Shown in pieces: positions 2,781 through 9,533 of a stretch of DNA of 64,000 nt. Source of the stretch: Dichotomicrobium thermohalophilum (GTDB lineage: Bacteria; Pseudomonadota; Alphaproteobacteria; Rhizobiales; Rhodomicrobiaceae); the NCBI RefSeq assembly GCF_003550175.1, contig NZ_QXDF01000001.1, forward strand, positions 1,574,501 through 1,638,500, read 5' to 3'. The position numbers and the translations under genes were made by a program. Positions within the stretch are counted from its first letter, which is position 1. Each line of letters begins with the position of its first letter. Under the pieces are notes generated by a model, which was not told the DNA's origin, did no database searches, and was given only the letters and a program-made list of their open reading frames with translations.

Positions 2781-5477
2781 ATGACGATACATAACCTCGA
2801 TTACCTGTTCCGCCCGTCCTCCGTGGCGCTGTTCGGCGCGAGCGAACGGCCCGGGTCGGTGGGCGCGACCGTCGCGGCGAACCTGCTCTCGGGCGGGTTC
2901 AATGGCCCTGTGTGGTTCGTCAACCCAAAGCACAAGAACGTGCAGGGCCAGCCGTGCTACGCCAGCACCGATGAGTTGCCGGGCACACCGGATCTCGCGG
3001 TGATCGCCATTCCCGCACAGGCGGTCCCCGAGCTGATCGCGGCACTGGGCAACAGAGGGTGCCGGGCAGCGATCGTGCTGACCGCCGGCATCGAGGGCGA
3101 GCTCGAGACCCGCATGCTGGAAGCCGCGCGTCCGCACGGTCTCAGGATCCTCGGGCCGAACTGCATCGGTCTTCTCATGGGCGGCTCCGGGCTGAACGCC
3201 AGCTTCTCGCACACGGCGCCGATTCCCGGCGATCTCGCGATTGTTTCGCAATCCGGCGCGCTGCTGACTTCCGTGCTCGACTGGGCGAACGGCCGGCAGA
3301 TCGGCTTTTCGCTGATGGCCTCGGTCGGCAACATGGCCGACATCGACTTCGGCGACATGCTGGACTACCTCGCCGGCGATGTCTCCAGCAAGGCCATCCT
3401 TCTCTACGTCGAGGGCATCAAGAACGCGCCGAAATTCATGTCGGCGGCGCGGCGCGCGGCACGGTCCAAGCCGGTGATCGTCATCAAGACCGGCCGACAC
3501 GAAACGGCTGCGCAGGCCGCGGCCTCGCATACCGGCGCGCTGGCGGGTTCGGACAAGGTGTATGATGCCGCCTTCCGACGCGCGGGCGTGCTGCGCGTGC
3601 CGGATCTGGATGAACTGTTCATTGCCGCCGAGACGGCCGAGCGGATCGGGACCATCCCCGGCGAGCGGCTGACCATCCTGACCAATGGCGGCGGCGCGGG
3701 TGTTCTGGCCGCGGACGCGCTGGCCGACGAGGACGGCGAACTCTCCGAGCTGTCGGATGACACGACGGCAAAGCTCCACGAACTCCTGCCGGAAACCTGG
3801 TCGGGTGCCAACCCGGTGGACATCATCGGCGATGCCGGGCCGGACCGGTACAAGAGCGCCATGAGCACGCTGCTTGCGGACCCGGAGACCGAGGCCATAC
3901 TTGTCATGAACTGCCCCACCGCGCTCGCCTCGAGTGAGGATACGGCGCGTGCGGTGATCGAGGCCGTGAACGAGCAGCGCCAGGCTGGCCGGAGCGCACC
4001 CGTCGTGACGAACTGGCTCGGTTCGGAGGCGTCGGCCAAGGCACGAGAGATGTTCGCGGAGAATAACATTCCTTCCTTCGAGACGCCTCGCCAGGCCGTG
4101 CGCGGTTTCATGCACCTCGTGCACTACTCGCGCGCACAGAAGGAACTGATGCGCGCCCCGCCCATGCTTCCCCGTCCGCTGTCCTTCGATTCCGAGACGG
4201 CGCAGAAGCAGATAGACGACGTGGTCAAGTCCGGGCGCAGCATGATGACCGAGCCGGAAGCAAAGCGGCTGCTGCAGGCTTACAACGTGCCGATCGTGCC
4301 GGCCTTCGAGGCCACGACGCCCGAGGACGTGCGCGAAGCCGCAGAGGAGATCCTGAGGGACTATTCAAGCGTCGTCCTCAAGATCCTGTCGCACGATATC
4401 AGCCACAAATCCGATGTGGGCGGGGTGCGGCTCGATATTTCCTCCGCCGAGCGTGCGGCCAAGGCGGCCGAGGAGATGATGGAGCGCATCGGAAAGGAGC
4501 GCCCCGATGCTCGGATCGAGGGCATCAGCGTCCAGCCGATGATACACGGCAAGCTGGCCCATGAGCTGATCGTCGGCATGACCGAGGACCAGACTTTCGG
4601 CCCCGTCATCCTGTTCGGCGCGGGGGGTACGGCGGTCGAGGTCGTCAAGGACACGGCGATGGCGCTGCCGCCGCTCGACCTCAAGCTGGCGAACGACCTG
4701 ATCCGCGAAACCCGCATTTCGCGTCTGCTGCGCGGCTACCGCGACCGTCCGGCGGCGGACATGGACTCGATCGCGCTGACGCTGGTCAAAGTCAGCTATC
4801 TCATCGCGCAGCATCCGGAAATCCGCGAGCTGGACATCAACCCGCTACGCGCGGATGAGAACGGCGCGGTCGCGCTGGACGCGCGCGTGGTGCTCGCCGA
4901 TCAGAATAAGTCGCCGCGCACGCCCATGGCTATCCGGCCGTACCCGCATGAGTGGGAAAAGACGATCACTCTGGAGGGCTTTGGCGAGGTTTTCATCCGC
5001 CCGATCCGGCCGGACGACGAGAAGCTCTACGAGGAGATGATCCAGCGCATGGACCAGAACGATCTGCGCCTGCGTTTCTTCTCCCCGCAGCGGCACCTCT
5101 CGCGCAAGTTTCTCGCTCGGCTCACGCAAATCGATTACGGTCGGGAGATTGCCTTCGTCGCGCTCACCCCTTCGGAAGACGAGATGCTTGGTGTTGCGCG
5201 CTTCTTCGCCGACCCGGACTACCGCAAGGCCGAGTATGCGGTGATGACCCGGTCCGATCTGAAAGGGCGCGGCCTGGGCTGGCAGCTCATGCGCCATCTG
5301 ATCGACTATGCCAAGGCAGAAGGGTTGGAGCGGCTTTACGGTTCGGTGCTGAGCGAAAACGTCACCATGCTGCGCATGTGCCAGCAGCTCGGCTTCAACA
5401 CCCGCCACGACCCCGAGGACCCGTCGATTTTCCAGGTTGAGCTACCGCTGAATCCATCCCCGGAGAGCGGCGACTGA
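2781..5477 (+). CDS. Bifunctional acyl-CoA synthetase (ADP-forming)-like / GNAT protein (Pat family)
   Basis: An 898-residue fusion with the architecture of protein lysine acetyltransferase Pat/YfiQ/PatZ. Domains in order: CoA-binding Rossmann domain (about 1-130), succinyl-CoA-ligase-like domains (about 150-450), ATP-grasp (about 488-705) and a C-terminal GNAT domain (about 727-890) with the acetyl-CoA loop GRGLGWQ. Known members acetylate lysines of metabolic enzymes such as acetyl-CoA synthetase. In enterobacterial Pat the phosphohistidine of the synthetase half is lost, whereas here a histidine remains in an SHTGAL context (His250), so the synthetase half might be active. It lies 148 bases upstream of mdh on the same strand, but mdh has its own plausible promoter. 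Confidence 0.88.
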   Translation: MTIHNLDYLFRPSSVALFGASERPGSVGATVAANLLSGGFNGPVWFVNPKHKNVQGQPCYASTDELPGTPDLAVIAIPAQAVPELIAALGNRGCRAAIVLTAGIEGELETRMLEAARPHGLRILGPNCIGLLMGGSGLNASFSHTAPIPGDLAIVSQSGALLTSVLDWANGRQIGFSLMASVGNMADIDFGDMLDYLAGDVSSKAILLYVEGIKNAPKFMSAARRAARSKPVIVIKTGRHETAAQAAASHTGALAGSDKVYDAAFRRAGVLRVPDLDELFIAAETAERIGTIPGERLTILTNGGGAGVLAADALADEDGELSELSDDTTAKLHELLPETWSGANPVDIIGDAGPDRYKSAMSTLLADPETEAILVMNCPTALASSEDTARAVIEAVNEQRQAGRSAPVVTNWLGSEASAKAREMFAENNIPSFETPRQAVRGFMHLVHYSRAQKELMRAPPMLPRPLSFDSETAQKQIDDVVKSGRSMMTEPEAKRLLQAYNVPIVPAFEATTPEDVREAAEEILRDYSSVVLKILSHDISHKSDVGGVRLDISSAERAAKAAEEMMERIGKERPDARIEGISVQPMIHGKLAHELIVGMTEDQTFGPVILFGAGGTAVEVVKDTAMALPPLDLKLANDLIRETRISRLLRGYRDRPAADMDSIALTLVKVSYLIAQHPEIRELDINPLRADENGAVALDARVVLADQNKSPRTPMAIRPYPHEWEKTITLEGFGEVFIRPIRPDDEKLYEEMIQRMDQNDLRLRFFSPQRHLSRKFLARLTQIDYGREIAFVALTPSEDEMLGVARFFADPDYRKAEYAVMTRSDLKGRGLGWQLMRHLIDYAKAEGLERLYGSVLSENVTMLRMCQQLGFNTRHDPEDPSIFQVELPLNPSPESGD

Positions 5478-6627: not shown

Positions 6628-7827
<1,200 letters not shown>

Positions 7828-7843
7828 GAGCCGGCGGGGCGGC

Positions 7844-7876
7844 TTGACGCGGTACACAGTCACACATAAGCTGTGT
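7844..7876 (+). promoter_or_regulatory. Candidate promoter/operator of the toxin-antitoxin pair
   Basis: TTGACG at 7844-7849 and TAAGCT at 7867-7872 are 17 bases apart. An inverted repeat, ACACAG (7854-7859) and CTGTGT (7871-7876), covers the spacer and the -10 element. This is where an autoregulating antitoxin would be expected to bind. It lies just after sucC, so the pair may have its own promoter as well as operon read-through. Confidence 0.4.
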
Positions 7877-7926
7877 AGACAATAGGGGGTGCTGGTGCGC
7901 CCATGCCCGTGTCAGGAGGCTCCGCC

Positions 7927-8238
7927 ATGAAGAACATTACGCTGGCCGTGGATGAGGAGGTGCTGGCGACCGTGCGCGCTTACGCGGCGCGCAACAACAC
8001 GACGGTGAATGCGCTGGTGCGCCAGCATCTGGAGCGGATCGCGCGTCAGGAGGACAAGGCGGCGCAGGCGCGGCAGCGTCTCGTGGAACTGGCCGCACAG
8101 TCCCCCATGCAGACGGGTTCGTGGCGCTGGAATCGGGACGAGATTTATGACCGTGACGTGCTTCCTCGACACCAACATCCTGATCTACGCGGCTTCTCAG
8201 AGCCCGAGCGAGACGAGGAAGAAGAAGATCGCGGTTGA
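7927..8238 (+). CDS. VapB-like antitoxin with C-terminal read-through extension
   Basis: A 103-residue protein whose first 50 residues look like a ribbon-helix-helix or VapB-type DNA-binding domain (KNITLAVDEEVL, then NNTTVNALVR). The middle ends in [11 protein letters not shown], the usual toxin-binding tail of such antitoxins, where a stop codon is commonly found at the toxin start. Here the frame stays open for about 30 more codons through the toxin gene, adding an acidic tail (DEEEED). The start is the ATG at 7927, after a GGAGG site at 7917-7921, rather than the ATG at 7903. It probably neutralises the PIN toxin and represses its own promoter. Confidence 0.75.
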   Translation: MKNITLAVDEEVLATVRAYAARNNTTVNALVRQHLERIARQEDKAAQARQRLVELAAQSPMQTGSWRWNRDEIYDRDVLPRHQHPDLRGFSEPERDEEEEDRG

Positions 8239-8614
8239 GCTGATACAGGGCACGGCCTTCGGCATATCGGCACAGGTGCTTCAGGAGTTTTACGTGGTCG
8301 CGACGCGTAAAGCCGAGGTTCCCTTGGAGCCAGCCCAGGCACTCGACTGGATCGAGCAGCTGGAAATCTTCCCCTGCGCACAGACCAGCCCGGCGCTGGT
8401 TAAACTGGGCGCCGTCATGTCGGAGCGCTACCAGATTTCATATTGGGATGGGGCGATCCTGGCCGCTGCGGAAAGCCTGGGCGCGCCGGTCGTCTATACA
8501 GAGGACCTGAACCACGGCCAGAGCTACGGCTCGGTGCGCGCGGTCAACCCCTTTATCGAGAACGCCCCGGTCGGCGGCTTCCATGAAGGCCGACAGACCT
8601 TTGCCGAGGATTGA
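8147..8614 (+). CDS. PIN-domain toxin (VapC-like ribonuclease)
   Basis: A 155-residue PIN-domain protein. Acidic residues expected for the metal site are present: Asp in CFLDTNIL near residue 8, Glu in LQEFY, Asp in YWDGAIL and Asp in YTEDLNHG. VapC toxins cleave tRNA or rRNA and are held inactive by the cognate antitoxin. The ATG at 8147 lies within the antitoxin frame, giving a 92-base overlap, much longer than the few bases usual for vapBC pairs. The stop lies 40 bases before sucD. All catalytic positions look intact, so I see no sign of decay. Confidence 0.82.
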
Positions 8615-8654
8615 GAAGAACCGAGAGCAACCACGAAAAGAAAAGGTTGAACCC

Positions 8655-9533
8655 ATGGCGGTGCTTGTCGACAGCAACACGAAAGTGATCACCCAGGGCA
8701 TCACGGGCAGTCACGGAACCTTTCATACCGAGCAGGCACTCGCCTATGGCACCAAGGTCGTCGGCGGCGTGACACCCGGGAAGGGCGGAGGTGAGCATCT
8801 CGGGGTGCCGATCTTCGACACGGTGGCCGAAGCGGTCGAGAAGACCGGGGCCAACGCCAGCGCGATCTATGTGCCCCCGCCCTTTGCGGCCGACGCGATC
8901 CTCGAGGCGATCGATGCTGAGGTTCCCCTCGTGGTGGCGATCACCGAAGGGATCCCGGTGCTCGACATGGTACGGGTGAAGCGCGCGCTTCAGGGCTCGA
9001 AGACGCGACTGATTGGCCCGAACTGCCCGGGCGTGATCACGCCGGATCAGTGTAAGATCGGCATCATGCCGGGTCATATCCACAAGCCGGGTTCGGTGGG
9101 GATCGTGTCGCGCTCGGGCACGCTCACCTATGAAGCGGTGGCGCAGACCACGGCGGCGGGGCTCGGACAATCGACCTGCGTGGGCATCGGCGGCGACCCG
9201 GTGAAAGGCACCGAGTTCATCGATGTGCTGGAGATGTTCCTCGCGGACGACAAAACAGAGTCCATCATCATCATCGGTGAGATCGGCGGCGCGGCAGAGG
9301 AAGAGGCGGCCGCCTTCCTCAAATCCGCGCCCGTCAAGAAACCGACGGTGGGCTTCATTGCGGGGCTGACGGCGCCGCCTGGCCGGCGCATGGGCCACGC
9401 TGGCGCGATCGTCGCCGGCGGCAGCGGTGGTGCCGAGGACAAGATCGAGGCGATGCGCTCGGCGGGCATCAAGGTGGCAGCCAATCCGGCAGCGATGGGC
9501 GCGACGCTGGTGGAGATGCTGCAAAACGTCTGA
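8655..9533 (+). CDS. sucD: Succinyl-CoA synthetase, alpha subunit
   Basis: A 292-residue alpha subunit, the standard length. It has the CoA-binding Rossmann domain at the N-terminus, GPNCPG near residue 121, and the active-site phosphohistidine His248 in MGHAGAIV. It forms the alpha/beta enzyme with SucC. The frame is open upstream to 8583, but the ATG at 8655 ([10 protein letters not shown]) gives the family N-terminus. It follows the PIN toxin by 40 bases with only a purine-rich leader, so sucC and sucD expression may depend on read-through across the toxin-antitoxin genes. Confidence 0.95.

Follow-up and report, generated by a model that had tools for sequence, protein, structure and literature searches.

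The window analysed here is a stretch of 64,000 nucleotides from Dichotomicrobium thermohalophilum, in which mdh precedes sucC and the 2-oxoglutarate dehydrogenase genes follow sucD. The genes sucC and sucD, encoding the two subunits of succinyl-CoA synthetase, are separated by 827 bases that contain two overlapping open reading frames on the + strand, the first for a putative antitoxin and the second for a putative PIN toxin. An earlier reading of the sequence alone (the sequence-only reading) had proposed that a VapBC-like pair separates the two genes, which our analyses confirm; the region that it delimited (7844-8614) comprises the candidate promoter and both genes of the pair. The features of the interval and its flanks are the following:

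6628-7827, + strand: sucC, succinyl-CoA synthetase beta subunit (NF001913, 598 bits, cut-off 370, E 5.1e-180)
7844-7849, + strand: candidate -35 box TTGACG of the toxin-antitoxin (TA) promoter (conservation in relatives)
7853-7877, + strand: putative inverted-repeat operator, TACACAG N11 CTGTGTA (conserved in embedded and free-standing relatives)
7867-7872, + strand: candidate -10 box TAAGCT, inside the operator, 17 nt from TTGACG
7927-8238, + strand: RHH-like antitoxin gene, 103 aa, the C-terminus reaching 27 aa beyond the usual stop
8147-8238, + strand: out-of-frame overlap of the antitoxin and toxin genes, 92 nt
8147-8614, + strand: PIN toxin gene, 155 aa (PF01850 PIN, 45 bits, cut-off 23.6)
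8655-9533, + strand: sucD, succinyl-CoA synthetase alpha subunit (NF004230, 464 bits, cut-off 336, E 1.8e-139)

The toxin stop codon is located 40 nt upstream of the sucD start. Searching the 2.99 Mb genome with the toxin (E <= 10) gave one match. The genome also contains a second, uninterrupted sucCD-like pair, whose beta subunit, the subunit tested, obtained its best score as malate-CoA ligase. Shortly 5' of mdh-sucC, positions 2781-5477 of the window encode a GNAT acetyltransferase domain joined to an acyl-CoA synthetase of the ADP-forming type, an arrangement resembling protein acetyltransferases.

Features of the Toxin and the Antitoxin

The window toxin contains the candidate residues D8, E47, D101 and E119/D120, which by analogy we take to be catalytic. 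Among 110 toxin rows (84 plus 26 from Brevundimonas, with duplicates kept), D8, E47 and E119 are present in all 110, D101 in 108 and D120 in 105. For the main Brevundimonas class, a crude method gives a toxin dN/dS ratio of 0.13; when all Brevundimonas pairs are taken, the ratios by this method are 0.22 (toxin) and 0.20 (sucD). Judged from these sequences, the toxin is under purifying selection and its active site is mostly conserved. These results bear on the possibility that the pair is an inert or decaying passenger, i.e., an old insertion whose toxin is disused and which is kept because deletions damaging sucC or sucD are lethal. Whereas such decay would fit the nonsense codon present in the toxin gene of one genome (G156, locus L106) and the alterations of D120 (5 of 110 rows) and D101 (2 of 110), it is at odds with the invariance of the other three residues and the low dN/dS within the class.

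The AlphaFold2 model of the toxin (pLDDT 90.8) matches PIN/VapC entries in its fold, with PcrIIC1 (8wmm) first, followed by Mycobacterium tuberculosis VapC20, Shigella VapC, FitB and others. PcrIIC1, a Cas9-associated nuclease, is not only the top fold match (TM 0.84 by target length) but also the top profile match of the toxin among solved structures (E 2.5e-5), and the sole one at E <= 0.01. The window toxin differs from it in having an antitoxin partner and TCA-cycle genes as neighbours, and Cas9 is absent from the neighbourhood; in view of the flanking mdh, sucC, antitoxin, sucD and 2-oxoglutarate dehydrogenase genes, we rejected a CRISPR-linked nuclease at this locus. Unlike VapC proteins named by the curated NCBIfam models, the toxin scores below the cut-offs of these models (TIGR00028, 22.6 bits against 73.6; NF047863, 15.2 against 140). 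We therefore refer to the pair as VapBC-type and do not assign a named VapC, these cut-offs being naming thresholds and not a biochemical feature.

Comparison of the antitoxin with DNA-binding families gave zero matches above the cut-off; those to DUF6364, the FitA-like RHH family (PF22513) and RHH_1 were all sub-threshold. The PF22513 match and the fold match of the toxin to 2h1c/2bsq are reminiscent of Neisseria FitAB, but the sequence similarity is too weak to support membership, and the genome context differs. The features shared with VapBC systems that have a PIN toxin are the PIN domain, the acidic active-site residues, a short antitoxin gene that lies 5' of the toxin gene and overlaps it, a palindromic operator (putative here) over the promoter, and the match of the model to VapC20 and Shigella VapC. 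The difference is that the close alphaproteobacterial copies of this module that were found lie at sucC-sucD, with sucD downstream. By its predicted domain, active site and putative operator, the module is a VapBC-type pair, of which the antitoxin domain is weakly recognised.

The usual overlap of the two genes is 11 nt, seen in 64 of 81 loci. An overlap of exactly 92 nt occurs in eight loci, which belong to the window, the Rhodomicrobium group and Methyloceanibacter and are all embedded, i.e., located between sucC and sucD. In these eight loci the usual antitoxin stop is altered and 27 residues are added. When the usual stop is read through in the 64 standard loci, only one would terminate at the position that gives a 92-nt overlap. 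Because it is common to them, the long overlap supports common descent of the window, Rhodomicrobium-group and Methyloceanibacter copies.

A Putative Operator and Promoter Upstream of the Antitoxin Gene

The sequence-only reading had also pointed to an inverted-repeat operator upstream of the antitoxin gene, and comparison with relatives bears this out for the putative operator with the arms TACACAG (7853-7859) and CTGTGTA (7871-7877). The palindrome found 5' of the antitoxin gene has the general form CACACAGTTACACATATACTGTGTG, with the -10 box within it. The window repeat scores 20/25 against the operator consensus of the relatives, which is the highest score on both strands of the window (runner-up, 16/25). 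This consensus was derived from Mesorhizobium, and the match at each locus was compared with 200 shuffles. Of the embedded loci, 24 of the 44 that are not from Mesorhizobium match at p <= 0.005, as do 23 of 27 free-standing loci (those away from sucC and sucD); the 10 out of 10 for Mesorhizobium itself are so by construction. The main consensus is unmatched in 20 of the 44 embedded non-Mesorhizobium loci; by eye, a different palindrome is present in Brevundimonas and Jiella, and L084 and L095 are without any. Conservation of the operator in many loci is also difficult to reconcile with an inert passenger. In the 23 matching free-standing loci (L072-L145 range), 1-4 bases separate the end of the palindrome, which includes the -10 box, from the start codon of the antitoxin gene, and this suggests leaderless messages; the corresponding distance is 16-26 bases in 27 of the 34 embedded loci with an operator match.

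A candidate promoter belonging to the pair itself had been claimed as well. A generic sigma-70 scan of positions 7600-8800 did not find one, and the -10 box of the window is poor; hence, the case for TTGACG/TAAGCT as a promoter rests on its conservation in relatives. TTGACG is located 16 bases past the sucC stop in the window. Tight embedded loci were taken as those, one per genome, with an antitoxin start at most 115 bases from sucC, and the sucC stop reads TTGA in 13 of these 18. The same reading is found in 1 of the 37 embedded loci that have longer spacing, in 1 of 29 toxin-free loci of the order and in none of 24 toxin-bearing Brevundimonas. In 12 of the 18 tight loci, the distance between this TTGA and a -10-like hexamer, searched for with a loose pattern, is 16-19 nt, as suits a -35 box; the rows are related, and these are hence not 12 independent events. 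The module would abut the sucC stop codon in such loci, and the TTGA of that codon could be used as a -35 box.

The toxin and sucD are separated by at most 68 nt in 48 of 55 embedded loci (best local match), and the spacing between sucC and the antitoxin gene in embedded loci varies widely, from 39 to 1,703 nt. No terminator was found in a scan of positions 7600-8800. A special hairpin between toxin and sucD, which we also sought, is unconvincing (z -1.7, with 11 of 200 shuffles equally stable). Given the short toxin-sucD spacing and a scan that found no terminator, sucD is probably carried on the TA transcript.

This arrangement raises the possibility that the pair has been recruited as a switch controlling the TCA cycle. 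VapBC bound to the operator would then act as a repressor and roadblock, and SucD would follow the antitoxin:toxin ratio, rising when stress proteases remove the antitoxin; or else the toxin would trim the sucCD message. In favour of such recruitment are the operator and -35 box lying between sucC and sucD, the short distances on the sucD side next to the variable ones on the sucC side, and the negative terminator scan. Control of the TCA cycle through sucD repression or sucCD mRNA cleavage is possible, and its plausibility derives from anatomy only, namely the 40 nt between the toxin stop and sucD and the fact that no terminator was found. However, the same operator is present on free-standing relatives without sucD nearby.

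Location of the Module in Related Bacteria

The sequence-only reading had presented the insertion as a departure from the normal adjacency of sucC and sucD. Comparison of the sucC-sucD interval in close relatives shows that it is not confined to this genome: six of the eight genomes of the family carry the pair, and a private insertion is therefore excluded. To survey the order, 199 genomes were searched for the toxin, sucD and sucC, and the toxin was matched at E <= 1e-5 in 33 of them. In the 13 best-matching genomes, which include that of the window, the toxin is always upstream of sucD, and sucC is on the far side in 12. The toxin lies directly before sucD in 11 of the 13; in G046 and G156 the two are separated by other sequence, of about 1.0 kb and 0.8 kb, respectively. 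The 12 genomes with the order sucC-toxin-sucD span seven families. None of 17 weaker loci of the order (L014-L030) is near sucC or sucD, and the distant toxin of G061 (39%) is found at the same sucC-sucD place. In G007 (L012, L237, L238), a 38% identical toxin lies just before sucD, and sucC is on another contig; as sucC ends 310 bases before the contig end, the sucC-sucD gap of this genome was probably cut by the assembly.

In addition, named genomes were scanned with a toxin alignment, which gave 222 relatives, of which the best 80 were examined. Among these 80, 51 toxins lie between sucC and sucD, one has only sucD next to it, at the edge of a contig, and 28 adjoin neither gene. By title, 51 of the 52 sucD-adjoining loci are alphaproteobacterial and one is given as Proteobacteria only. 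The 28 free-standing loci are from Acidobacteriota, Gammaproteobacteria, Verrucomicrobiota, Planctomycetota and Actinomycetota. The query alignment consisted of embedded toxins and so is biased towards embedded ones, but free-standing relatives of up to 63% identity were still recovered from other groups. In a class-wide draw of 385 genomes, 32 had a toxin match; the 29 loci examined besides the window were all weaker, and none was by sucC or sucD. Of 101 Brevundimonas genomes, 26 contain the toxin at E <= 1e-53, in all cases upstream of sucD; two of these have 0.7-1.4 kb between toxin and sucD, and sucC is present in the locus in 24. The same module lineage, identified by toxin sequence, thus occupies the sucC-sucD gap across Hyphomicrobiales and Caulobacterales.

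Relatives were also sought on mobile elements. The phage search returned none, the viral contigs no confirmed relative, and the plasmid search ten records, all with at most 40% identity; on this basis we rejected a phage- or plasmid-borne module.

Empty Sites and Other Genes in the sucC-sucD Gap

Clean empty alleles are frequent in genera that also carry the pair. Rhodomicrobium G030 has a clean sucC-sucD gap of 45 bp without the pair. Among the 75 Brevundimonas genomes without the toxin, 20 were sampled; of the 19 in which both sucC and sucD were scored, 14 have a clean gap of 43-59 bp and 5 contain other sequence. No toxin or antitoxin remnants were detected in the 20 at E <= 1e-3. For the order as a whole, the gap could be tabulated for 120 of the 199 genomes, those with rows for both genes on one contig: it is shorter than 60 bases in 70 and at least 300 bases in 32, a table that overstates inserted genes because some of the gaps of at least 300 bases are partly SucC tail. 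A long C-terminal tail of almost only Ala, Lys and Pro is present on SucC of L049, L050 and L061 (G160, G132 and G019, of one genus).

Other genes occupy the same gap in relatives (L031-L070, L099-L148, L209-L228). These include a cupin directly after sucC (11 loci), DUF1579 (6 loci) and, by eye, glycosyltransferase-like, SH3-like and secreted-looking proteins of about 200 aa; two of the gap proteins submitted to Pfam gave no match. The family genome G682 has a gap ORF of 284 aa that by eye is glycosyltransferase-like. In L037 (G046:C543), a second TA-type pair (positions 1502-2086), consisting of DUF433 and a DUF5615 PIN-like protein, lies behind the vapBC-like pair in the same gap. The sucC-sucD gap thus looks like a general insertion spot. 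Such diverse cargo suggests that the gap tolerates many genes, as would be expected if the pair were an inert passenger.

These data modify two of the ideas considered above. First, it had been argued that loss of the pair would be constrained by the need to keep the essential operon intact; this is only partly right because clean empty alleles, as in G030 and 14 of 19 Brevundimonas, are common. Second, the frequent empty alleles in the same genera, the other genes filling the same gap and the operator on free-standing relatives mean that nothing indicates that sucD needs the pair, and we regard its recruitment to control the TCA cycle as unlikely.

Phylogenetic History of the Embedded Copies

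On a toxin tree of 84 rows, the distinction between embedded and free-standing copies requires three changes, compared with a mean of 23.7 after shuffling, and none of 500 shuffles was as low. The bootstrap range is two to four changes, and the starred branches force only one. A single origin of the embedded copies is possible on this tree. The window toxin is placed nearer to free-standing Acidobacteria than to Rhodomicrobium, a placement without support. Toxin distances correlate with those of sucC+sucD over 50 loci, excluding G061 with its very long branch (Spearman 0.71, 0/999), and also after thinning to 29 loci (0.42, 0/999); they are uncorrelated within Brevundimonas (0.08, 279/999) and Mesorhizobium (-0.18, 761/999).

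An alternative to a single old insertion that was passed on by descent and recombination is that related free-standing modules inserted repeatedly and independently at a favoured target, namely the sucC stop. Repeated insertion would account for the junction at the sucC stop TTGA in 12 of 18 tight loci, for the entry of other genes into the same gap, for three changes instead of one on the toxin tree, and for the distant G061 toxin (39%) at the same place. Against it, the 28 free-standing loci in the best 80 of 222 include none that is alphaproteobacterial by title, no relative was found on phage or viral contigs, and plasmid copies have at most 40% identity. Moreover, the 92-nt overlap points to a shared ancestor for the copies of the window, the Rhodomicrobium group and Methyloceanibacter. 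Overall, we consider repeated insertion unlikely.

On the sucC+sucD tree, Brevundimonas (L120-L150) groups with Aurantimonadaceae, a family of another order (Hyphomicrobiales), and therefore the sucCD operon itself may have moved between orders.

Replacement of Alleles in Brevundimonas

Apart from 1 row, the Brevundimonas toxins fall into two main classes, of 17 and 8 rows, that are about 65% alike. When mapped on a sucD DNA tree of 25 Brevundimonas rows, these classes require nine changes (shuffled mean 7.9), of which the starred branches force at least four. In L184 and L204, for example, SucD is 99% identical and the toxin 64%. The synonymous difference between L194 and L197 is 0.07-0.08 for sucD and 0.09 for the N-terminal half of the antitoxin gene, and 0.55, 0.65 and 0.38 for the successive thirds of the toxin gene. 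In 38 close pairs, the median values are 0.16 for sucD, 0.28 for the antitoxin N-half, 0.50 for the antitoxin C-half (cut at the antitoxin stop) and 0.52, 0.54 and 0.35 for the toxin thirds. Since near-identical sucD genes are paired with toxins only about 65% alike, the alleles have been replaced in place, and the pattern fits recombination that imported diverged alleles beside a fixed sucD. The whole gap may be exchanged in some pairs, because upstream gap genes vary there too.

Antitoxin and toxin distances are correlated within Brevundimonas, for the C-half (0.47) as well as the N-half (0.44) of the antitoxin (each 0/999), whereas the correlations of antitoxin or toxin with sucD are 0.10-0.15 (52-126/999). 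For sucD, the value is 0.15 (64/999) with the first 90 toxin residues and 0.38 (0/999) with the toxin end. We rejected the idea that the antitoxin C-half and the toxin move as one cassette, as trimming at the stop lowered the C-half correlation from 0.72 to 0.47, against 0.44 for the N-half. An inert passenger would not be expected to show antitoxin and toxin co-varying more with each other than either does with sucD. Taken with the conserved active site and operator, this makes a passenger quite unlikely, and we favour a pair that is probably active and otherwise an ordinary VapBC-type module.

Discussion

Chromosomal toxin-antitoxin pairs are usually viewed as randomly placed and short-lived. 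Here, in two orders, one TA lineage has retained a single location within a core metabolic operon. That location and the turnover of alleles in Brevundimonas are what is unusual about the module. In a literature search, in which matching and subscription papers were incompletely covered, we found no paper describing a TA pair at sucC-sucD. The closest match listed (PMC6410093) deals with TCA enzymes and the GraT toxin of Pseudomonas putida, and the terms succinyl and sucD do not occur in the passages of PMC2701414 that were searched.

The pair, its place, the conserved operator, the empty sites and the allele replacement in Brevundimonas are sequence-based observations. We think it likely that they reflect an active, self-regulated type II TA pair of the VapBC type, long resident in the sucC-sucD interval and exchanged by recombination. 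In such a system, an RHH antitoxin would counteract the predicted toxicity of a PIN ribonuclease with a predicted RNA target. The antitoxin, together with the toxin, would bind the palindrome over the -10 box and so repress the pair. Being downstream, sucD would be part of any transcript from the TA promoter and also of read-through from mdh-sucC. Homologous recombination in the conserved flanking genes, sucC and sucD, would bring about gain, loss and replacement between strains, keeping the module at one place while its alleles turn over.

A more far-reaching version is that Hyphomicrobiales and Caulobacterales have a dedicated recombining TA locus in the sucC-sucD junction, at which diverged alleles are exchanged between species via the essential flanks under selection for rare types (in competition, kin or phage interactions), and at which the repressor sets SucD expression, so that a polymorphic TA system is tied to the TCA cycle. 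We consider this quite improbable.

Hypervariable exchange loci with conserved flanks include specificity subunits and immunity loci. The Brevundimonas locus resembles them in that a diverged segment is swapped between near-identical flanks; it differs in that the swapped segment is a toxin-antitoxin pair adjoining a TCA-cycle gene. Because clean empty, filled and swapped states occur side by side in Brevundimonas, long-standing questions of TA persistence, of benefit to the host and of a TA promoter driving a core gene become testable in innocuous laboratory strains by comparison and deletion.
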